Below, one piece after another: positions 6,250 through 19,212 of a stretch of 26,808 bases of DNA (within the stretch, counting starts at the first letter, position 1; every line of letters begins with the position of its first letter). This DNA is from a virus. Location: positions 1 through 26,808 of IMG/VR virus record IMGVR_UViG_3300025000_000372, one strand, 5' to 3'. The notes below the pieces were generated by a model. That model was not told where the DNA came from. It searched no databases and was given only the letters and a program-made list of their open reading frames with translations. The position numbers and the translations under genes were made by a program.

Positions 6250-8169
6250 TTAAGGACCAAAAACAGGGCCAAAGTTAAAGACACTTAGCGCACGCCGCGC
6301 CGATGCCGCTACCTGCACCGCCACCGCGCCAATATCCACGCCACCCTCGCCGGAGCCTTTTAGGGCGGGATTGGTAGGGGTGAATGCAGCTCGTGCTGCT
6401 GTATAAAAACTTTCCCATTTAGCCGCTGTGTTGAATCCTGTGTCGTCATTCCGCTTGCGAATCTCCAGCCAAATATCATCCCACGTTGTAGCCACAGGGA
6501 GAAAGGTTTTACCCCATACCAAAAAATTGAAATCTTTGTTTAAAAAGCCCGGATCGGCTGTTGTAATGTCATGTCCGCCTGGAGGGGTTGGCGATGCATA
6601 TTTAGCATCATCTAAATCGTAACCGTCCGCTGTACCATTCAGTCGGGCATTATAATCACAATCCAGCATTGAGGCGTCAGCGATGGTTGAGGCACTTTCT
6701 TGTTTTACAATGTAGTGAGTCCCTGGCACAGGGCTGTACATTATATTATTACGGACTTTTTGCACTGTATTAGCGACCAGCGTAGCACCTTCAAGAGTGA
6801 CTAATTTGCCGTTTTTACCTATAACTGTATTATTTTCGACTACTACTGTCGTAGGGGTATGGTTCCCCACTAATGCAACTACGGAGTTACTGGTATTATT
6901 ATTGTTCGTATCTGATATAGCGATGCCGTTTTTTATACTGCCGCCACCGGCCACCGATACAAAAACCCCTCCTGACGGTGCTGATGTCGCGGTTTCTGCT
7001 ACCCACCCGTCAACCAACATAGGACCAACACAACGCCAATGGTCGTTGTCTGTTGTTGCTGTATGCAATGATACCAGTCGAGACATTATTGTGCCGGCAG
7101 GGGCCAAAGCATTGACGCCCCCTGCGGTCGCTCGATTGTATGTAAAGATATCCTCTAGCAAAACCATATTAGTGGACGAACCACCGCCGTGACTCAGAGG
7201 GGCCAAGGCACTACCGGACGTGATTGCAATAGCTACTCGTTGCAATGACCAGCCGATATAATATTGTAGTTGTACGCCGCCCTCTATGACACTATCCCTA
7301 ATCATCCGTGTGCCAGTTGTTATACTCTGTGAGGTCCAACAGAGTACGCTATAAAGAGATGCTGCCTGCGCTGGATTTTTGATTGTAGTTTTATCAATTA
7401 AAAATGTCGCCGTAGCAACTATTCCACTATTACCGTGACCGACCACAATCCCTGTACATCCGTCAACAATACAATTTTCCAGCGAAAATCTATTGGTCGC
7501 GCCCTGTAACTGAGCTGTCGCCCATTGTGTCGTGCCATATCCCAAGTTAGTAAAATTAGTCCACTTGCCCTCTAACCGACCGGCACCTAGTAATCCAACT
7601 GTCACAGTCTGTGTGCCCACCCTAACTGTAGCACCATCAGTAAATCCGCCAAAATTAGCAGAACCAACAGCATTTGTGAACGTTACCCTATTTGACCCTG
7701 TCCCTGTCCCAGTCAATTTTAATATGGCATTTGGCTGATCCGTGACCATCCCGATTCGCCAGATATAATGATTATCGGCAGGCACAGCCGATTGCGAACT
7801 ATCGTGGTGAATAACTGCCCCGGCGTTAGCAACCCATGTTGCATTTGCTTGCAAAATCGGGCCTCGGAATACGAGCGTACCGTTAATAATTAAAATCCCA
7901 GTTCCTGCTGTTGACGCACATTGAATAGCTGGGGCTGAAATATCTTCTGGTGTGGATAGAGTTGGAGATGATCCCACAATGGCCGTCACCCCGACGGGTA
8001 TTGTCAAGGTAACGCCGTCAGCTATGGTAATGGTGTCACCGGCGGCAAATTCAGTCCCTCCAAAAGTGGCTGCGACATTTATATCTCCTGTGACTGATGC
8101 CGTTAAAGCCGCCGCCCAACTATTCCCTGCAACCGCCAATATCATCAGCACCATCAAAAATCTTTTCAT
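6250..8169 (-). CDS. Secreted beta-helix-like protein
   Basis: 639 residues from ATG at 8169, chosen because GGAG sits 5 nt upstream and the protein then begins with a clean Sec signal peptide (MKRFLMVLMILAVAG, likely cut after SWA). After it come Thr/Ala/Val/Gly-rich short strands and Asn-rich turns (AGDTITIADGVTLTIP, VVVENNTVIGKNGKLV, VRNNIMYSPVPG) typical of right-handed parallel beta-helices in surface or polysaccharide-interacting proteins. The C-terminal region has a helical WDDIWLEIRKRND segment. Composition is visibly more GC-rich than the flanking neck genes, suggesting separate acquisition. It could be a lysogenic-conversion surface protein or an exported spike; the signal peptide argues against an ordinary virion tailspike. 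Confidence 0.75.
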   Translation of the reverse strand: MKRFLMVLMILAVAGNSWAAALTASVTGDINVAATFGGTEFAAGDTITIADGVTLTIPVGVTAIVGSSPTLSTPEDISAPAIQCASTAGTGILIINGTLVFRGPILQANATWVANAGAVIHHDSSQSAVPADNHYIWRIGMVTDQPNAILKLTGTGTGSNRVTFTNAVGSANFGGFTDGATVRVGTQTVTVGLLGAGRLEGKWTNFTNLGYGTTQWATAQLQGATNRFSLENCIVDGCTGIVVGHGNSGIVATATFLIDKTTIKNPAQAASLYSVLCWTSQSITTGTRMIRDSVIEGGVQLQYYIGWSLQRVAIAITSGSALAPLSHGGGSSTNMVLLEDIFTYNRATAGGVNALAPAGTIMSRLVSLHTATTDNDHWRCVGPMLVDGWVAETATSAPSGGVFVSVAGGGSIKNGIAISDTNNNNTSNSVVALVGNHTPTTVVVENNTVIGKNGKLVTLEGATLVANTVQKVRNNIMYSPVPGTHYIVKQESASTIADASMLDCDYNARLNGTADGYDLDDAKYASPTPPGGHDITTADPGFLNKDFNFLVWGKTFLPVATTWDDIWLEIRKRNDDTGFNTAAKWESFYTAARAAFTPTNPALKGSGEGGVDIGAVAVQVAASARRALSVFNFGPVFGP

Positions 8170-8209
8170 AAAATCTCCAGGGCGGGTGTTCTCCCGCAAG
8201 TGGATTCAG

Positions 8210-8473
8210 TCAGCGTTTTTCTACTGATGTAAACAAGGAATATCTATTACCCATTTGTCTTGGTATTGAAATCAACGCCATTTCTTGTCCTGGTTGAATA
8301 TCAAAATCGAAGCGCAACCAATGTTTTTCATTTTTCTTTAAACCTTTGGGAAAGGTTAGAAAAGTGTGAGTTTGTGCATCGGTAATCAATGTGCCTTGTT
8401 TGCAATCATTTCCAATATAATAGCCTGTGCAGAAGATGCACAAACATACCAGCACCATCAATAATCTTTTCAT
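8210..8473 (-). CDS. Small secreted protein, unknown function
   Basis: 87 residues from ATG at 8473, preceded by GAGG at 5-nt spacing. A longer in-frame opening exists but lacks a Shine-Dalgarno and would bury the signal sequence. N-terminus MKRLLMVLVCLCIFCTGYYIG is a signal peptide or membrane anchor ending near a Cys. The mature part is basic and beta-prone (HTFLTFPKGLKKNEKHWLRF, then GQEMALISIPRQM). No family recognised. It is the third of four adjacent genes encoding exported proteins, starting about 12 nt after the preceding gene and 40 nt before the beta-helix gene. Confidence 0.65.
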   Translation of the reverse strand: MKRLLMVLVCLCIFCTGYYIGNDCKQGTLITDAQTHTFLTFPKGLKKNEKHWLRFDFDIQPGQEMALISIPRQMGNRYSLFTSVEKR

Positions 8474-8484
8474 ACGATCCTCGC

Positions 8485-8658
8485 TTACGACAGAGTGGTT
8501 GCGGTGGTAACAGTCGTGGTAACGGTCGTAGTTGTCAGAATTAGGCCTGTAACCACCTTGTCGGCAGGATCGGAAGCCGCCCATTTAAATGTAATATCCT
8601 CAGCCTGTGCTACGCTTGCGATAAGCAAACAGGCTATAAGCAACAGTATCTTTTTCAT
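8485..8658 (-). CDS. Short secreted protein with Thr-rich tail
   Basis: 57 residues from ATG at 8658, with GGGG upstream and an ATGA overlap with the 47-codon gene before it. Signal peptide MKKILLLIACLLIASV, cut after AQA. The mature N-terminus EDITFKWAASDPADKVVTG looks like the first strands of a fibronectin-III-type domain, but it then dissolves into a Thr-rich low-complexity end (TTTTVTTTVTTATT). It may be a truncated remnant of a larger fibronectin-like protein or a small surface protein. Part of the exported-protein cassette. Confidence 0.6.
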   Translation of the reverse strand: MKKILLLIACLLIASVAQAEDITFKWAASDPADKVVTGLILTTTTVTTTVTTATTLS

Positions 8659-8798
8659 CTTGTCCCCTTTACAGTCCCGCGTCTTTTTCCCGTTGCAGCA
8701 AACCATCTATTAGCCTCAAGCCGCCCCTGCCTGCATACGCTCAGCACATTAAATATTGCATTCTGTTCCAGCGTCCAGTATGAGCGACGGGGAAGCAT
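8655..8798 (-). CDS. Possible 47-residue basic protein
   Basis: Small frame from ATG 8798 to TGA 8655, starting right after the preceding gene's stop and ending in an ATGA overlap with the next gene. The product is basic (RRSYWTLEQNAI, then ANRWFAATGKRRGTVKG) and faintly recalls SANT/Myb-like DNA-binding helices (W-T-x-E pattern). There is no clear Shine-Dalgarno, so expression would rely on re-initiation. Support is mainly the junction geometry. Confidence 0.35.
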   Translation of the reverse strand: MLPRRSYWTLEQNAIFNVLSVCRQGRLEANRWFAATGKRRGTVKGTR

Positions 8799-8801
8799 TA
8801 A

Positions 8802-9197
8802 TTACTGAAACAAACCGTGTGCTGTTTTAAGAGTAGCTGTAGAATAAGCACGCAAGCAAACCGAAGTAATAGTAGGGGCTTTAGAAACAGGTGAGTTCAT
8901 CCACTGACCAAACATATCGGAAACGGGAAAAGTTAAAGTTTCACTTCCATTATAAAACATCTTAAAGCCAACACCTGAACCATCAGTAGTTGCAGTTGCT
9001 GTAGTTTTAAGCCACCATGATATTTTACCCAAAGTTGAGTAACACTTAAAACCCTTTGTTCCAAGTGAAGCGCTTCTAATTACAGAAAAAGCGCCGCTTT
9101 GCATCTTTTGCCCATCGCCATCACGACTTAATGTAGTATCTGCAAAACAAGGAACTGAAAAAACAAACATGAAGATTGCGATTAAAAGTGTTTTCAT
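8802..9197 (-). CDS. Secreted protein, unknown function
   Basis: 131 residues with a clear signal peptide (MKTLLIAIFMFVFSV, likely cleavage after CFA before DTT) and a strong AAGGAG. The mature protein of about 112 residues is Ser/Thr/Gly-rich and predicted all-beta (SGAFSVIRSASLGTKGF, ISWWLKTTATATT, FKMFYNGSETLTFPV), with two Cys that could form a disulphide. No family recognised; by eye it has the feel of a small jelly-roll or surface domain. First gene of the exported-protein cassette that interrupts the head-to-neck gene order; separated from the head gene upstream by a perfect 9-bp hairpin. Confidence 0.7.
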   Translation of the reverse strand: MKTLLIAIFMFVFSVPCFADTTLSRDGDGQKMQSGAFSVIRSASLGTKGFKCYSTLGKISWWLKTTATATTDGSGVGFKMFYNGSETLTFPVSDMFGQWMNSPVSKAPTITSVCLRAYSTATLKTAHGLFQ

Positions 9198-10781: not shown

Positions 10782-12029
10782 TTAGGATGCGCCAAGCTTG
10801 ACGCGGGTAAATGCTTCAGCCAGGACCGGCATTCCGTCAGTTTCCATACGACCAATGAAACCAACTTGATTGTTCAGAGCAAACAATTCGTTCAAACGAC
10901 GGAATTGAAGTGCAAGACTATCGGCAATCCAGTAGTTCGAGAAGTCAGCAAAGATGCCCACATACTGACTTGCTGTAAAGGTGTTTGGGGCAAACTCGCT
11001 CATTGACAACGGACGGCCAAGAAGCATATCAGGAACGCCTGATTTTGTGGCAAGATCAAACAGGTAACGACCTTCGCCGTCTTTGAGTTGAGCAAGCATC
11101 TTAATTGCGTCCCGATGGAACAGCCACTGAGCCGTTCCCATATACTGAGCCTTCAGGCTGTATTTAACAGCAATAAGGTTGTCGGCCTTAATTTCAGTTG
11201 CCGTGTTACCTTCGGAAACGTCACGGGTAGTAGGAATACCGTCGTCGGAAGCAGTAAACACGCCAAGAGCCTGTTGAGCGCCGTTGCCGGTAAGATACGC
11301 TTTTTCCATAGCAACGCCGAATTTGTAAGCCATGCGGTCCATAACAAGGCTTTCAGGATTCAGGGCTGAGTTGCGAAGCAGCGGCTCAGAAATCTTGACC
11401 AGTTTGGAAAGAGGGTGAGGTGTGAGCGAACGCTTACCGAAGCGCATATTATCGTCTTCGGAAACCGTACCAATTTCAGGGGTCCAATCAGCATCGCCGA
11501 CGTCAGTATCCAGGGTAGGAACGCCACAAGACATTGCACCTTTAAGCGGAATTACTTTTGCAAGTTGACGCATAAAAACTTTGTCTTTCACATTTACAAG
11601 AAGATCGTTGATAAACTCTTCAGGTGTGAGAGTAAAGCCGCCTTTAACGTCAGTACCGGCAGACAGACCGCGAGACTCAACCAGTTCTTTTTTCAGGCTG
11701 TGAAGTTCTTCATTATTCAAAGAACGCTCACCGTCCAGAATCATCTTGCGGAAGTTGATTGTGAACTTGTCTTCAACGGGTTTTTCAGTTCCGCTTTGTT
11801 TAGCTGCTGTGCGAACTGCTACAGTAGCAAGTTCACGTTCGGTTTCGAGAAGACGAACTTCATCGTCAATCTCTTTGCCAAGTTTCGATACATCCCCAAT
11901 GTGCAAGTCATATTGTCGCTGTTCGTCGTCGGTTTTAACACGCTTTTCACCGGCAGCTTTTTCAGCAATACTTCTTGCTTCCTGCAATGCCCTTCCCCGC
12001 TGATCGCGGAGTTCGTCTACTCTAGCCAT
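10782..12029 (-). CDS. Major capsid protein, HK97 fold
   Basis: 415 residues. The first roughly 85 residues are a charged helical delta domain (VDELRDQRGRALQEARS, DDEVRLLETERELA) removed by the prohead protease in the family. The rest carries HK97 capsid motifs: SRGLSAGTDVKGGFTLTPEEF (E-loop/N-arm region), KVIPLKGAMSCGVPT, LVKISEPLLRNS, AYLTGNGAQQALGVF, and the C-terminal FALNNQVGFIGRMETDG. It assembles into the icosahedral shell. Located after the protease as in HK97; AAGGAG Shine-Dalgarno, preceded by a hairpin at 12050-12069. Confidence 0.95.
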   Translation of the reverse strand: MARVDELRDQRGRALQEARSIAEKAAGEKRVKTDDEQRQYDLHIGDVSKLGKEIDDEVRLLETERELATVAVRTAAKQSGTEKPVEDKFTINFRKMILDGERSLNNEELHSLKKELVESRGLSAGTDVKGGFTLTPEEFINDLLVNVKDKVFMRQLAKVIPLKGAMSCGVPTLDTDVGDADWTPEIGTVSEDDNMRFGKRSLTPHPLSKLVKISEPLLRNSALNPESLVMDRMAYKFGVAMEKAYLTGNGAQQALGVFTASDDGIPTTRDVSEGNTATEIKADNLIAVKYSLKAQYMGTAQWLFHRDAIKMLAQLKDGEGRYLFDLATKSGVPDMLLGRPLSMSEFAPNTFTASQYVGIFADFSNYWIADSLALQFRRLNELFALNNQVGFIGRMETDGMPVLAEAFTRVKLGAS

Positions 12030-12082: not shown

Positions 12083-12733
12083 TTAGGCTATTTCCAGCAA
12101 CGCAAGCATATTTTTATCGTATTCTTCAGCAGCCATACGTTCTTCTTCAAGTTTAGCCATCGCTGCTTTCGTTTCCAATTCTTCGGTTTCTTTTAACTGA
12201 ACTAAAGAACGAACAGCGCAAGAAGTAGAAGCATAAGCCGGATAGGTTACAGGACTTACATCATATAAACGATCTACTTTCAGAATTGAACGCAAGTAAG
12301 TTCCATCTGGTTCTTTACGCCAAGCGTCGCCACCTTCTGCCACGCGAAAACCAAAGCTGCACTGGCTCACATCACCTCTATTCATTGAAACTTGCAAGTC
12401 TTTTGCGTAAGAAGTTTCAGGAGGATCAATAGCAAACTTGAGGCCGCGTTCATCTTCAATAAGTCGGCATGTTCCTGACGTATTACGCCCTAAGATCAAG
12501 TTTGGATCGTGATTGAATAGCGCCCGAATATCTGAAGTTTTAAGAGCATCGGCAAAGCACCCAGGCATTAGCATTTCACGGAAGCCACCAAGGTCTTCAG
12601 ACAAGCTGTTAAAGTTTGCAGCGTACCCTTCCAACGTCGGAGTTTTCTTACCGTAAGCTGCATCTTTGACACGCATTTCTACAGTGTGAGTTCTACGCTC
12701 CATTTCATCAGTTTTTTCAAGTTCAGGCTTCAT
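12083..12733 (-). CDS. Prohead maturation protease (HK97 family, peptidase U35)
   Basis: 216 residues. N-terminal LEGYAANFNSLSEDLGGFREMLMPGCFADAL, then RALFNHDPNLILGR carrying the probable catalytic His75, and QCSFGFRV carrying the probable catalytic Ser126, followed by YDVSPVTYPAY. These are the hallmark motifs of the U35 / HK97 prohead protease family (PF04586). The C-terminal Glu/Lys/Ala-rich helix may scaffold. It processes the capsid delta domain during head maturation. Shine-Dalgarno AAGGTGA; lies between the bacterioferritin-like gene and the major capsid gene. Confidence 0.92.
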   Translation of the reverse strand: MKPELEKTDEMERRTHTVEMRVKDAAYGKKTPTLEGYAANFNSLSEDLGGFREMLMPGCFADALKTSDIRALFNHDPNLILGRNTSGTCRLIEDERGLKFAIDPPETSYAKDLQVSMNRGDVSQCSFGFRVAEGGDAWRKEPDGTYLRSILKVDRLYDVSPVTYPAYASTSCAVRSLVQLKETEELETKAAMAKLEEERMAAEEYDKNMLALLEIA

Positions 12734-12743
12734 AAGTCACCTT

Positions 12744-13208
12744 TCAGACTTGCAGAGCAAGGTAATTTTCAATACCTATTTCTGTAATCTGCCTCATGTT
12801 TATTTCAATTTCGCTCAAATGTTTATCTTCATGAACAAGCAGGTTTTCAAGTAAAGCCCTTGTTCCAAAATCCTTATGTTGTGTAGCAAAATCTATCGCT
12901 TCAGAAAAACCACCAATAGAACGCAATTCGGTTTCTTTATCACAAAGAAACATACTTCTTACGTCAGTAGCTATATCAACTTGGTTCAGTTCTGACAAAT
13001 TAGGTTTACCGTCAAGAAATAAAACACGCTCAATAATCTGTTCCATTTGTGTCATTTCTTGCAAGGCTCTTTGTTTAACAGATTCGGCCAACTTACCGTA
13101 ACCGCTATTTTTGCACATAAGCGAATGTGCTATATACTGAACGTAGTTTGTATGCTTTTCAATCAATCGCAAATTCAACTCATGTATCATTTCAGGATTG
13201 CCATTCAT
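12744..13208 (-). CDS. Bacterioferritin homologue with partly degenerate ferroxidase centre
   Basis: 154 residues, the length of bacterioferritin, and it aligns without gaps by eye to E. coli Bfr over its length: shared MxGxxxxI, QY at 24-25, H28, M31, KN at 33-34, G36, then EM at 51-52, IERxLFLxGxPNL, a region with E94, EDxxH at 127-130, IGxxNYLxxQ. Four ferroxidase ligands are kept (E51, E94, E127, H130), but E18 is Lys and H54 is Gln; the haem ligand Met52 is kept. Bfr forms 24-mers that store iron. Here the gene lies in the head operon, overlapping the portal stop by ATGA and 10 nt before the protease, with a GAGG Shine-Dalgarno. Function in the phage is unknown; a structural, cargo or haem-binding role seems more likely than full ferroxidase activity. 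Confidence 0.85.
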   Translation of the reverse strand: MNGNPEMIHELNLRLIEKHTNYVQYIAHSLMCKNSGYGKLAESVKQRALQEMTQMEQIIERVLFLDGKPNLSELNQVDIATDVRSMFLCDKETELRSIGGFSEAIDFATQHKDFGTRALLENLLVHEDKHLSEIEINMRQITEIGIENYLALQV

Positions 13209-14530
13209 ATTGTAACCTCTTCTTTAGGTTTAGCTTCAGGTGCTACAGGTTGATTCTGTTGACCGGCCATTTCCGCAGGCATTGTGCCCGACTGAACGTA
13301 CAATTTATCAGCAACAGGATCAGAAGAAGGACTTTCACCACTATTACGACGAATATCATTAGGGGTCCAGGACGCAGTGTCAAATCTTGATTTATTATAC
13401 TCAGCTTGAGCTTTCATATCGCCACGCATAAGAGCGTTGAAATCAAAGTTAAAGTAATAAGTAGATTCAGAATCATAAAGTAAATCTGTTTTAAGTCGCT
13501 GTTCCCAATTTTCAAATTCAGGTTGCATATTCAACGAAATAAACATTTGCATAATAACTTCAGCAGAAGCGAACGTTTGGTTCTTATCGCCCGAACGATG
13601 TATAAGCATCATTGGTACATCGAAGCCGCTACATATATCTTCAACTTGAAATTTACGAGTTTCGAGGAACTGTGCTTCTTCCATTGTTAAACTCATTTTT
13701 TCAATATTCATTCCATTTTCAAGAATGATAGTTCTGTGGGCATTTGCAGCACCTGTATATTGATCCAACTGTTTACGCAAACGATCAAAAGCCGAGTCGT
13801 CGAGTTTATTAGGATGGGTAAATACTTTCCCAATTTGTGCGCCGTTAGTAAACAGCGTTGCGCCCTGCTGTTCGGTAGCAAGAGCAAGACCAATACTTTC
13901 AGCAAACAACTTAACAGCAGATTTACCCACAATACCGTTTGAAGACCGGCTTCTTATATGCAGTATTTCACTTGCAAGAAAAACTTCAGTATTTCCGTTC
14001 ATCGGAAAGTATTGATAAAAAAGTTTTGAACCAGCAGGGGGCGTAGGGGAGTTGTCATACATGTAATACATAGAACCATTAGGAGTAATAACAAACGGAA
14101 ATACTCTATCGGGATGTAAAGGGATAAGCTGGTTTAAACCACGCCCAGGAGTTGACTGTTTGTAGTTATAGAAGTTGCCGCGCAACATCTTATGGCCCTG
14201 ACCCATTTCACGCCATTCGTAAGATGTTTGCCAAGAATTAGGATTGTTGTGCATTTGCTTATAAAGCCTGTGAGCTTTGGCAACTTCATGACCGCCATTA
14301 TTAGGCAGTTCTTTCATTATTTGCAAAGGCAACATCGCAAGCGTAGAAGCTTTACGATGGATACAAGCGTAGACTGTAGAAACCTTTTCAGCACTATCAG
14401 GATTGACGTTTTGGCCTGAAGAAGTATTCAGCCCTCCACCGAACAAATCAGTAAGAGCCGGATCACCAAGGGATACATTGGAGGCTGTTACAGAAGCGCG
14501 GGTTTCAAAGGCTGCTGAAAGGATGCCCAT
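13205..14530 (-). CDS. Portal protein, HK97 family
   Basis: 441 residues with family motifs: VSTVYACIHRKASTLAMLPLQI near residues 49-71, NSWQTSYEWREM, GNFYNYKQ, LIPLHPDRV, ILHIRSRSSNGIVGKSAV, and FLETRKFQVEDICSGFDVPMMLI (about 287-310). The C-terminus is Pro/Glu-rich. It forms the dodecameric ring for DNA entry and exit and the nucleation point of head assembly. Its start overlaps the stop of the small membrane-protein gene (TAATG), and its stop overlaps the bacterioferritin-like start (ATGA). Confidence 0.95.
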   Translation of the reverse strand: MGILSAAFETRASVTASNVSLGDPALTDLFGGGLNTSSGQNVNPDSAEKVSTVYACIHRKASTLAMLPLQIMKELPNNGGHEVAKAHRLYKQMHNNPNSWQTSYEWREMGQGHKMLRGNFYNYKQSTPGRGLNQLIPLHPDRVFPFVITPNGSMYYMYDNSPTPPAGSKLFYQYFPMNGNTEVFLASEILHIRSRSSNGIVGKSAVKLFAESIGLALATEQQGATLFTNGAQIGKVFTHPNKLDDSAFDRLRKQLDQYTGAANAHRTIILENGMNIEKMSLTMEEAQFLETRKFQVEDICSGFDVPMMLIHRSGDKNQTFASAEVIMQMFISLNMQPEFENWEQRLKTDLLYDSESTYYFNFDFNALMRGDMKAQAEYNKSRFDTASWTPNDIRRNSGESPSSDPVADKLYVQSGTMPAEMAGQQNQPVAPEAKPKEEVTI

Positions 14531-15410: not shown

Positions 15411-18400
15411 TTATAAGACACGAAGTATCTCGTCCTCACCTTTAGCAGCTCGTGAGTTGTAGCTGTCAGAATCGTCGTTACTGGTAATCAATCGCCCCAA
15501 TCCCATAATTGCAGCAACTCCTGAATCTATCTTGAGCTTATCGTTTTCTTTTGTAGGAAAATACATTTTTCCGCTACCACCAAATCGCGATTGCTTTTTA
15601 ACAATATTACCCATACACCAAGTAAAAATAGGATCGCCAGAATGCCAGAACTCATTTGCAGCAATCATTGCTTCAAGCTCCTGCATTGGCTCGTTCATGA
15701 GGGAGGGGCTTTGAGGAAATTCAACACACTCAAAGTTTGCCCATTGACTTATCAAATGTATAATGTGGGTTGCCTCTTTTTGGTCAAATGAGAGTTCCTT
15801 CACAATATGATTTTTACTAACAACTTCAATATCTTTTTCAACAATCCCGAAGTCAGTTCTAGCCCCGTCCGTCTTGGTCAAGTGTCCTTCGATAACCCAT
15901 TTCTGATAGTGGGTGTTTTCTTTACGATTTATCGTGTCTTCAGGCATATAATGCTTTGCAAAAGCAGCAACACAATTTCGGTCAACAGGTTTTTTCCAAG
16001 CACAAACACTTTCATCTTCTAAAGTCAAATTACTAACACAAACGTTCATCCCATCTACAACAACAACTTCACCAAAACATTTTGGGCAATTCGTGTTTAC
16101 AATGCGTCGTTTGTATTTAAACAACATTACTAAGGCGCAAAGGTCGATTTTGCTGGCAAGGTCGAGGGCAAGCCAACACTCTTGCCCCAAGAACATATCT
16201 AAACTTAAAGTTAAATCTTCACATTGTTTCCACCGTAGCATATCTACAAAGCTAATTCCCGCATTCTGCCAAATATTAAGATGTTTTGTTAAAATCACGT
16301 TTCTTTGTTGGGGTTTATTTAAAGCATCCCTATACTTATTAAGCAAATAGTCTTCCTCTATAGAAATTAAATAGTTAGGATTTACTTTTTTCCATACTTC
16401 AAAATCTTCCCAAGAATCACCTTCGTCGATAGTAAATACAATACAAAATAACGAATCGTCTATAACACTTCCTTCCAAAACTTTAATTGCTTCACAATGA
16501 AGATCATAACAAGGGTAGGAGGTGTTTGTTCCGGCAGTTGTTATAACTTTTAACACAGGTTGCTCACGTGATCCCATTCCAGTATCCATTGCATCATATA
16601 AAACACTCGTTAAATGTTCATGATACTCATCTACAAGTGCACCATTAGGACTTGCACCGTCGCCTGGTTTTCCCACAATAGGAATAAACTTGCTCGAATC
16701 TTCAATTCTAAATGCCGAAGTGGGGTTTTTAGCCGTACCTGTTATTTCTACATTATAATAATCTGCAAATTGAGGATTCATTTTAATCATTTGCCAAGCT
16801 GGTTGAAATACCATCATAGCTTGTGCCTCAGTAGTTGCACCAGCGTATACTTCAGCAGCCTGGATTCCATCAGCAAATGCTAAAAACAAACCATCAGTTG
16901 CTGCTTCAATACTATTATGTGTAGGTAACATTGTCTTACCAAAAAGATATAAATGAGAAGGTGAATCTACAGTTATGCAACGAACTGGAACCGATTCAAC
17001 CGGCTCGCAAGAAACAATTTGAACAGTTTTACTTCTAGGCGAAATACTTACGTCTGTTAGTTCGCGCATTCTATCAAGTTTACGTTGCAATCTAAAAACA
17101 GGAAGTTCGCATTTAAAAACATTAAATTGTATTGAGTAGCAAGTCCCTTTTACATCAACTCCGTTACAACGCATTTTCTTTTCAATAAGGCTATGCTTAA
17201 TTCCCATTGAAGAAACCAGTTCACAAAAATCTTCAGCAAATTCTTTTAAAATTGTTACAAATTGAAACACTTTACCTTTAGCATCAACAGTCCCATCGGT
17301 ATCCATCAAACCTTGTAACAAAGCCAATCTTTGTTCAAAAGAAGACCTTAAATAAATTTTAGGAATGTGCTTATTTTTATAAACATTCAATTGCTTTAAA
17401 ATGAAATTTAAACTTCTAGAGTCATTTATATCAGTTACAATTTCCCCGTTTATAAGTGTGCGAACAAATAAACGCCAAGCCGTTCTATCGCGTCTTTGTG
17501 TAAAACAAAAACCTTCTTTTAAAATCTCACCTTTAAAACTTTCAACATCTTGTTCTCCACAAGAAATAGCAAACTCGTTGCTGTTCCCATCACCCAACCA
17601 CGAACCAAACAGATAAGGTGAAATAGGTAAATCAACTTCTTCACAAACAATAGGTTTGGGCATAACCATTGAATGATTAATGTCGTTTCTTGAACCGAAT
17701 GTTAAAGAATTAAATATTTCTTTAGTTGTTCGTATTCTAGTAATAGTATCAACATTAAAAGGATGTTCAATTAGATCAACTTTAGCAAGTTCTGATAAAA
17801 TGTGCAGGGCTTGCGTTTCTGATATTTTTAAACAATCTCCTATATAAACTTGTCTGCCGTAAAGGTTAGCATACCAGTATTCTTTAGTTCTACCGCTAAT
17901 TGTACGTTTAGACAAAGAAGGTTCTCTAAATCGACGAATCTTTTTTTCTTTTCTCTCTCCTGGAGTATTTACTCTCGCTGTTGTCAGCCATTCGTGTTCT
18001 TCGTCAGCTATAACTTCCTGACCGTTAGAAAAAACAAGTTTGTAGCAAGGTCTATTTATCATACTTTCAGTGACATTAGTTATATTACAAGGATTACCCG
18101 TTTCATCAAATACTTTATCGCCTACTTTCAAATCACCTTGAGTAGTCCATCCTTGCGGAGTCGGTATTAATGTATCTAAGGAAAGTGCTTTCCCATTTTT
18201 ACGGGGTAGCTCGAAATACATCTTTGTAAATCTTCGTTTGTTATTCTTTTTCTTCAACCAACCAAAACCAACACCTTGCATAAAGATTTGATGCAATTCT
18301 AACTTTATAAACTCGCCACGCCAACGATCTTTAGTATGTTGCAAGCGTTCGGTGAAGCCGCATCTTCTCGTAGCCGCAACTTCACTAAAATAATACGGAT

Positions 18401-18539
18401 AGTTTTCATCACTTTGTTTAGCAAGATCATCTAAGTGCCGCTGACACGCAAGTTTTTCAAACTTACAACTCTTTCTGTTAGGCAGAGTGTCCGTCAGTAC
18501 AGCATTACAGTAATAAAGAATACTTTCAATATAAGTCAT
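15411..18539 (-). CDS. Terminase large subunit with embedded intein
   Basis: 1042-residue precursor; 617 residues after splicing. N-extein 1-117 ends PRKNGK and the C-extein starts SIEAATDG, so the joined sequence PRKNGKS is the Walker A motif of the packaging ATPase. Walker B is ALVDEYHEH (about 634-642). The nuclease domain starts near CWLALDLASKIDL (D793). An unusual Cys-rich segment (C818-x2-C821, C834, C846) suggests a zinc-binding insertion in the nuclease domain. PF03354-like terminase family. It cuts concatemeric DNA and drives it through the portal. Start has AAGGAG; upstream are a promoter, a 125-nt leader and a terminator-like hairpin. Follows the small terminase gene. Confidence 0.93.
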   Translation of the reverse strand: MTYIESILYYCNAVLTDTLPNRKSCKFEKLACQRHLDDLAKQSDENYPYYFSEVAATRRCGFTERLQHTKDRWRGEFIKLELHQIFMQGVGFGWLKKKNNKRRFTKMYFELPRKNGKALSLDTLIPTPQGWTTQGDLKVGDKVFDETGNPCNITNVTESMINRPCYKLVFSNGQEVIADEEHEWLTTARVNTPGERKEKKIRRFREPSLSKRTISGRTKEYWYANLYGRQVYIGDCLKISETQALHILSELAKVDLIEHPFNVDTITRIRTTKEIFNSLTFGSRNDINHSMVMPKPIVCEEVDLPISPYLFGSWLGDGNSNEFAISCGEQDVESFKGEILKEGFCFTQRRDRTAWRLFVRTLINGEIVTDINDSRSLNFILKQLNVYKNKHIPKIYLRSSFEQRLALLQGLMDTDGTVDAKGKVFQFVTILKEFAEDFCELVSSMGIKHSLIEKKMRCNGVDVKGTCYSIQFNVFKCELPVFRLQRKLDRMRELTDVSISPRSKTVQIVSCEPVESVPVRCITVDSPSHLYLFGKTMLPTHNSIEAATDGLFLAFADGIQAAEVYAGATTEAQAMMVFQPAWQMIKMNPQFADYYNVEITGTAKNPTSAFRIEDSSKFIPIVGKPGDGASPNGALVDEYHEHLTSVLYDAMDTGMGSREQPVLKVITTAGTNTSYPCYDLHCEAIKVLEGSVIDDSLFCIVFTIDEGDSWEDFEVWKKVNPNYLISIEEDYLLNKYRDALNKPQQRNVILTKHLNIWQNAGISFVDMLRWKQCEDLTLSLDMFLGQECWLALDLASKIDLCALVMLFKYKRRIVNTNCPKCFGEVVVVDGMNVCVSNLTLEDESVCAWKKPVDRNCVAAFAKHYMPEDTINRKENTHYQKWVIEGHLTKTDGARTDFGIVEKDIEVVSKNHIVKELSFDQKEATHIIHLISQWANFECVEFPQSPSLMNEPMQELEAMIAANEFWHSGDPIFTWCMGNIVKKQSRFGGSGKMYFPTKENDKLKIDSGVAAIMGLGRLITSNDDSDSYNSRAAKGEDEILRVL
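16914..18188 (-). mobile_element. Class-3 intein with LAGLIDADG homing endonuclease
   Basis: Residues 118-542 of the precursor. Starts with Ala (ALSLDTLIPTPQGW) rather than Cys/Ser and ends THN before Ser+1. Block B has HEW (H182, W184), block F has VRCITV with Cys521 where class-1 inteins have Asp, and block G has Thr540-His541-Asn542. W at B:12, C at F:4 and T at G:5 make the WCT signature of class-3 inteins, which splice via the block F cysteine. Two DOD motifs, LFGSWLGDG (about 310-318) and LLQGLMDTDG (407-416), retain their acidic residues, so the homing endonuclease looks intact. The insertion splits the Walker A lysine from its serine. Confidence 0.9.
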
Positions 18540-18670: not shown

Positions 18671-18700
18671 ATCCTAACACAATCAATACCTTTTTGTCAA
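18671..18700 (-). promoter_or_regulatory. Sigma70-type promoter for terL
   Basis: TTGACA (18700-18695) and TAGGAT (18676-18671) with an 18-nt spacer, minus strand. The -35 overlaps the stop region of the small terminase gene. Confidence 0.65.
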
Positions 18701-19212
18701 CCAACTTCGTCCAAGTCTGCGAATGAATTTTTAGTCACTTGCTTTGGCTTCTGCGGCACACGAGCACGACTTGAGGGGGTCAATCCGAACTCAGTCAATA
18801 TTTTCATTTCAAAGTCTTTACACTGTTTATGTATTTCAACTTCTGGACGTTTTTTAACACTACAAGTTTCAACACCCTTATCTTTACCCAATTTTATATA
18901 TTTAACCTCTTCATAAGTAAGACCTTCAACACGAAGATAGTTTTCAAGAAACACAAGTTGTTCATGATTATTAGCATACAAAGTAATAGCATAAGAGTCT
19001 GTTTCGCTACAAGGGTACATATCTTGAACACGTTCAACAAATTCGTTAAAGTAAAATTTTGCATCAACAGATAAATCTTCAGGAGCTATCGCACAACTAG
19101 CAGAAGGAACTGGTTCATCCCTATCTTTGTACCTGTGGGCATGAGCTTTATCGTTTTTAAGCAACCTTAATTCCGGCGGGAAGGGTTTTCTTCCTGTTGA
19201 TTTGCCGCCCAT
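18697..19212 (-). CDS. Terminase small subunit (P27 family)
   Basis: 171 residues. N-terminal basic Pro-rich part (GGKSTGRKPFPPELRLLKND, then RDEPVPSASCAIAPEDLS), helical DNA-binding/oligomerisation core (AKFYFNEFVERVQDM, TDSYAITLYANNHEQLVFLENYL), and the family-typical C-terminus FEMKILTEFGLTPSSRARV. These match phage terminase small subunit P27 / Terminase_4. It recognises packaging sites and delivers DNA to the large subunit. Located between an HNH/zinc-protein cluster and terL, the classical arrangement for cos-type phages. AAGGAA Shine-Dalgarno. Confidence 0.9.
   Translation of the reverse strand: MGGKSTGRKPFPPELRLLKNDKAHAHRYKDRDEPVPSASCAIAPEDLSVDAKFYFNEFVERVQDMYPCSETDSYAITLYANNHEQLVFLENYLRVEGLTYEEVKYIKLGKDKGVETCSVKKRPEVEIHKQCKDFEMKILTEFGLTPSSRARVPQKPKQVTKNSFADLDEVG

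Follow-up and report, generated by a model that had tools for sequence, protein, structure and literature searches.

Genes of the ferritin superfamily in phages have so far been read as auxiliary metabolic genes. In Vi01-like phages, a ferritin-like protein is predicted beside the tail genes (PMC10892097). The haem ligand of bacterioferritin (Bfr) is used for iron release (PMC12120770). As for the phage head, muf genes directly follow portal genes, and SPP1 gp7 reaches the procapsid by binding to the portal, a route which MuF toxins have been proposed to use as well (PMC5576092, PMC6316719). Here, we describe a Bfr-like gene that follows the portal gene in the head operon of a phage and summarize what occupies the same position in other viruses. 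The stretch of DNA under analysis, called the window, is a whole IMG/VR contig of 26.8 kb, and the whole dataset is metagenomic.

The bacterioferritin gene and its neighbours

The gene (12744..13208, minus strand) encodes a protein of 154 aa, which matches Pfam Ferritin (E=4e-22) and NCBIfam TIGR00754 (bfr; E=9e-33, residues 1-153), the latter with 113.5 bits and thus below the cut-off of 125.55, which is passed by the phage relatives L013, L014, L016 and L020, unlike the window protein. All 50 of 50 matches in a PDB sequence search were Bfr or ferritin entries, and the best alignments were gap-free over residues 1-151. The AlphaFold monomer model (pLDDT 96.4) was matched by Foldseek to Pseudomonas BfrB (4toa) with TM 0.98 and rmsd 0.7, and its helices (5-34, 38-64, 83-110, 114-144 and 146-152) make up a Bfr-like four-helix bundle with a short fifth helix. 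In the C-terminal part, N148 and Y149 are kept and Gln151 is replaced by Ala. By its sequence and model, the window protein is a true Bfr homologue with a canonical predicted Bfr subunit. The sequence-only reading had proposed a ferritin aligning to Bfr without gaps, and both points were borne out, the family by the two HMM matches (though one is below its cut-off) and the alignment by the PDB entries.

The ATG of the Bfr gene (13208-13206) overlaps the TGA stop of the portal gene (13207-13205) on the minus strand, and this ATGA overlap (13205..13208) likely couples the translation of Bfr with that of the portal protein. AGAGG at 13220-13216 (13216..13220, minus strand) is likely its ribosome-binding site, as read from the sequence. 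Upstream lies the portal gene (13205..14530, 441 aa; PF04860, E=1e-81; phrog_12), while only 10 nt separate the Bfr stop from the ATG of the prohead protease (12083..12733, 216 aa; PF04586, E=1e-45; phrog_80), followed by the HK97-type major capsid gene (10782..12029, 415 aa; PF05065, E=1e-52; phrog_10). According to Pfam and PHROGs, the operon side beyond the portal contains the large terminase subunit with a LAGLIDADG intein inside (15411..18539, 1042 aa) and the small one (18697..19212, 171 aa), all on the minus strand. The 154-aa ORF between portal and protease and its ATGA junction had been noticed before; the strand had gone unmentioned. A second IMG/VR contig (L002, 3300025011) is identical to the window over 5,902 bp (100% identity), including the whole locus, which argues against a chimeric assembly, although both samples possibly come from one study.

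Besides, two other observations were made in this region. An intein is also apparent in the L013 terminase (924 aa), as in the window terminase, and the L004 terminase (616 aa) is apparently intein-free. Between the head and connector genes of the window (6250-9197, minus strand), several consecutive ORFs have signal-peptide-like starts (8802-9197, 8485-8706 and an internal Met of 6250-8199), with similar ORFs in L013 and L004; secreted proteins inside a head-tail module would be odd.

Ferritins between portal and protease genes

A first scan of IMG/VR with a small Bfr alignment returned distant relatives with Bfr in exactly the same slot (L013 and L014), and also loci with another head type, in which a diverged Bfr lies between the portal gene and a protease-capsid fusion (L021-L026). 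In a second Bfr scan, ferritin was again located between portal and protease or protease-capsid (L110-L115). Starting from the portal instead, we scanned with two portal alignments and obtained 100 loci, in which ferritins were then called by our own Bfr profile. It turned out that 60 of the 100 loci contain a ferritin, all of them on the portal strand and 3' of the portal, with a portal-ferritin gap usually of -4 to 252 nt (1251 nt in L160 and 766 nt in L180). In the portal group of the window (portal identity >=50%, slot visible), 9 of 13 loci have it. A ferritin-side scan with alignment A11 was run to avoid the bias of portal queries, and 78 of the 80 returned loci showed the portal upstream and the protease or protease-capsid gene downstream, while 2 were cut by the contig end. 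Pooling the scans leaves 78 distinct ferritins, which fall into 48 clusters at 95% identity and 16 at 70%; the cluster counts are the ones to rely on, since a number of contigs repeat a virus already seen in another sample.

These slot ferritins occur with two portal families. Many other phages also have a ferritin in this slot, which makes the head-operon place of the window Bfr meaningful, and the random insertion in a single genome, which the earlier reading had named as its refutation, does not hold. Some phages have Bfr elsewhere, such as L015 (outside any head module), L016 (upstream of the terminase) and L020 (between terminase and portal). The genes of the latter two (L016:6001-6462 and L020:6001-6468) are complete and belong to larger phages, in which they are near terminase and portal genes and not directly behind the portal.

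In L013 (5784-6008), L200 (5868-6044) and L204 (1691-1966), portal and ferritin are separated by small ORFs of 59-92 aa, those of L013 and L200 looking alike. Between ferritin and protease, L196 (4932-5576, by PHROGs) and L201 (6649-7365, by resemblance) contain GIY-YIG homing-endonuclease-like genes, indicating that mobile elements target the ferritin-protease junction. In L014 (958-2319), the portal ORF is split into two frames (958-1824 and 1873-2319), probably through a frameshift or an assembly error.

Relatives without ferritin are also informative. In L003, L004 and L005, whose portals are about 72% identical to that of the window, the portal-protease slot holds no gene, and ferritin is absent from the relatives L003, L197, L198 and L206, so the gene is dispensable. 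In ferritin-free relatives, the distance from the portal stop to the protease start is about -53 to +32 nt, apart from one of 209 nt which has no ORF. Since the slot is empty when ferritin is missing, it is no hot spot for cargo or morons in general; a generic insertion hot spot was rejected on this ground, and short ORFs or a GIY-YIG gene join the ferritin in a few phages only. A scaffold or essential head protein was rejected as well, and the scaffold-like filler suggested earlier is disfavoured, for relatives with such similar portals do without the gene or any substitute.

We also searched for earlier records of this arrangement. PHROGs gave no ferritin match with E below 0.001, and among the inspected tblastn matches in the isolate-phage collection there was no phage with a ferritin in the portal-protease slot. 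The matches inspected in that collection turned out to be bacterial chromosome stretches filed as phage, whose bfr genes are the host's, including Salmonella, Acinetobacter, a P. aeruginosa chromosomal stretch in "phage Y5" and gut Bacteroidales-like contigs (misfiled records AFYI01000003, AGRM01000003, CAKLQH02/CAKLQF02 and OQ572407). In the full text of open-licence papers, no report of a ferritin between portal and protease was found. A search for prophages and hosts with the ferritin or portal found nothing in about 400 genomes each of Acidobacteriota and Pseudomonadota and in 195 from the class to which a Geobacter MAG belongs; as no positive-control genome exists, this is of little proof. 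Being absent from PHROGs and the searched isolate phages, the family seems to have been overlooked in annotation, and we consider it an even bet that these genes make up a group of phage bacterioferritins not described before and are fixed accessory parts of the head module.

Ligands and evolution of the slot ferritins

A tree of the phage ferritins with 83 cellular Bfrs was built by a quick method, and exact placement in it is uncertain owing to long branches. The window's group contributes nine ferritins, all in the slot, which form one clade (clade 1, SH-aLRT 100), while 15 ferritins of the other group form another (clade 2, SH-aLRT 100) on the far side of the cellular Bfrs, so the slot was probably filled at least twice. 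The L113 ferritin is 64% identical to that of L110, and the L113 and L114 ferritins belong to clade 2. L113 and L114 contain a phrog_12 portal (the window's type) and a separate head maturation protease, whereas L110 contains a phrog_21 portal and a protease-capsid fusion, indicating that ferritin kept its place while the head genes around it were exchanged. Mapping ferritin presence onto the portal tree for the window's group takes 2 changes, most simply two losses, and ferritin would be ancestral in this group. The dN/dS (NG86) is about 0.07-0.12 for close ferritin pairs and 0.23 for the most distant pair; by this measure, the slot ferritins are under purifying selection.

The ligand positions of the window protein were read by script as K18, E51, M52, Q54, E94, E127 and H130. 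Four of the six ferroxidase ligands are kept (E51, E94, E127 and H130), while E18K and H54Q leave the di-iron centre incomplete; the haem ligand Met52 is present, and helix 2 reads E51-M52-T53-Q54, with the ExxH motif lost. The residues at the ligand positions had been given correctly from the sequence alone, but the proposal that ligand loss suggests repurposing does not fit the family. In clade 1, 8 of 9 ferritins contain all six ligands (E18, E51, H54, E94, E127 and H130), and it is the haem Met ligand which is mostly missing, since position 52 is Lys or Arg in 7 of 9. The window protein is the only member with lost ferroxidase ligands and one of two keeping Met52; the ligand loss is private to the long branch of the window phage.

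The window ferritin is only 40-46% identical to its sisters, while the window portal shares 67-74% with the portals of closer relatives. In most pairs, sister ferritins diverge about as much as their portals (for instance, 66% and 65% for L196-L200), which suggests that the window copy, not the family, changed its constraint. This copy evolves fast and is short of two ligands, and its role may therefore differ from that of the family. K18 and Q54 should make it a poor ferroxidase; the copy has drifted and would probably serve only as a cage or haem-type subunit, alone or mixed with host Bfr, or else its function may be on the way to being lost.

Clade 2 differs in its metal site. E18 and E92 (the equivalent of E94) are kept, and helix B has C50-E51-x-H53. 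An inserted loop at the di-iron site, as in L160:7453-7935, splits helix D (helices 112-126 and 135-149 in the model), and H120, H125 and H135 are near-invariant. A structure search matched the clade-2 model to 8sqr with TM 0.93. As predicted from sequence and model, clade 2 has a reorganised, unusual metal site on the Bfr fold.

Possible roles and comparison with known systems

Dozens of related uncultured viruses have a ferritin in the same place, indicating that it is probably part of the building, filling or protecting of particles and not a chance insertion. We prefer to read it as an accessory ferritin of the head module, most likely portal-proximal and head-associated, with a probability of about 0.5. 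The Bfr fold, the recurrent exact position, the occurrence in at least 2 phage clades, purifying selection and the otherwise empty slot support it. The ferritin would be co-transcribed with the portal, often with translational coupling, just before the prohead protease, and would therefore be made when and where the head assembles and act on the assembling head. It could be a portal-proximal cargo of small copy number, like the SPP1 gp7/MuF proteins with genes in the same slot, which would oxidise and bind Fe(II) near the genome and thereby limit Fenton damage to packaged DNA or deliver iron. A bolder form, which we hold only tentatively and would not expect to be right, is that many uncultured tailed phages package a Bfr cage or subunits, held by the portal inside the head, as the viral equivalent of an encapsulin iron compartment, protecting packaged DNA or supplying the next host with iron or ferroxidase activity. 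Against the head-module reading speak the missing terminal targeting extension, the dispensable gene, the Bfr genes elsewhere in L015, L016 and L020, and the fast evolution of the window copy with its two lost ligands.

The main rival is a late cytosolic iron sink, that is, an auxiliary metabolic gene whose product would stay in the infected cell, use O2 or peroxide to oxidise Fe(II), store iron late and protect replicating and packaging DNA, the head operon offering late and strong expression. The slot may indeed have been favoured for no other reason than late and high expression. Such a sink fits the full ferroxidase ligand set of 8 of 9 clade-1 members, with the haem ligand mostly lost, as well as the dispensability in relatives and the ferritin-superfamily genes outside head modules in other phages, such as the Bfr of L015, Dps and Mn-catalase in Gratiaviridae (PMC8008677) and a viral bfr in a lake-sediment virus (PMC10904782). 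However, it leaves unexplained why a single slot is used across two portal families and two ferritin clades when a late operon has many other places, and we regard the sink as a serious possibility that falls short of being probable. For the window copy, Met52 together with E18K and H54Q could mean a haem-type subunit which enters the host Bfr cage and changes iron release or blocks iron uptake. The same positions are changed in Magnetospirillum Bfr2 (E18Q, H54A and H131M; PMC6529640), and the loss of the helix-2 ExxH, confirmed here in the window protein, is described for haem-binding subunits (PMC12120770). This would be improbable, as it fits the window copy only, Met52 being lost in most of its clade; the window protein groups with phage ferritins and not cellular Bfrs (in a tree without an annotated haem subunit), and the ligand loss may be simple decay.

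The same fast evolution and lost ligands could also mark a chance insertion, a decaying moron or an assembly artefact in one genome. The identical locus in L002, the intact window ORF with good start signals, the filled slot in many phages and purifying selection in relatives make this very improbable, and for the group it is largely refuted. Separately, a Foldseek search of BFVD gave weak ferritin-fold matches (E 0.03-0.17), including proteins of uncultured Caudovirales phages named prohead protease (A0A6J7WIS1, A0A6J7XDU5 and A0A6J7WPK9; E 0.07-0.17), hinting at candidate fusions of ferritin or Dps with the protease. Such fusions, if real, would be a strong independent sign of procapsid targeting.

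For the accessory head-module ferritin, one conserved slot, unrelated head modules and purifying selection point to a role in or at the virion. This raises a testable question, namely whether an iron-handling protein is carried in the heads of tailed phages, with a bearing on the Ferrojan-horse idea and on phage DNA damage in iron-rich habitats.

Compared with E. coli Bfr and P. aeruginosa BfrB (TIGR00754), the window protein shares the fold, length, gap-free alignment, Met52 and 4 of 6 ferroxidase ligands, but it scores below the family cut-off, carries K18 and Q54 and is encoded in a phage head operon, while most ferritins of its clade, unlike the window copy, have all ferroxidase ligands and no Met52. 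The haem subunits Magnetospirillum Bfr2 and Shewanella SoBfr2 resemble it in keeping Met52, losing ExxH and changing E18 (PMC6529640, PMC12120770), whereas the window protein groups with phage ferritins of the opposite residue pattern, and no second Bfr which could be a partner haem-free ferroxidase subunit is found within the 26.8-kb window. Phage Dps, Mn-catalase and viral bfr genes likewise belong to the ferritin superfamily, but the families differ and the excerpts of these sources describe no fixed portal-protease place (PMC8008677, PMC10904782). MuF and SPP1 gp7 genes lie, as the phage Bfr does, directly 3' of the portal in the packaging/head module (PMC5576092, PMC6316719), while the window protein has no MuF domain (PF04233), Ferritin being its only significant Pfam match.

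In encapsulin systems, a ferritin-superfamily cargo gene (EncFtn, IMEF or encapsulated Bfr) stands beside the gene of an HK97-fold shell, as here (PMC8346489). No encapsulin shell gene (PF04454) was found as a neighbour, and by inspection there is no terminal extension of the encapsulin-targeting type, the window protein ending within the Bfr helix E region. HK97-fold kinship alone says nothing on packaging. The shell gene near the window ferritin codes for a phage capsid (PF05065) and belongs to a full head module, together with portal, protease and terminase genes; the arrangement bears on the question of how ferritin-like cargo came into HK97-fold shells.
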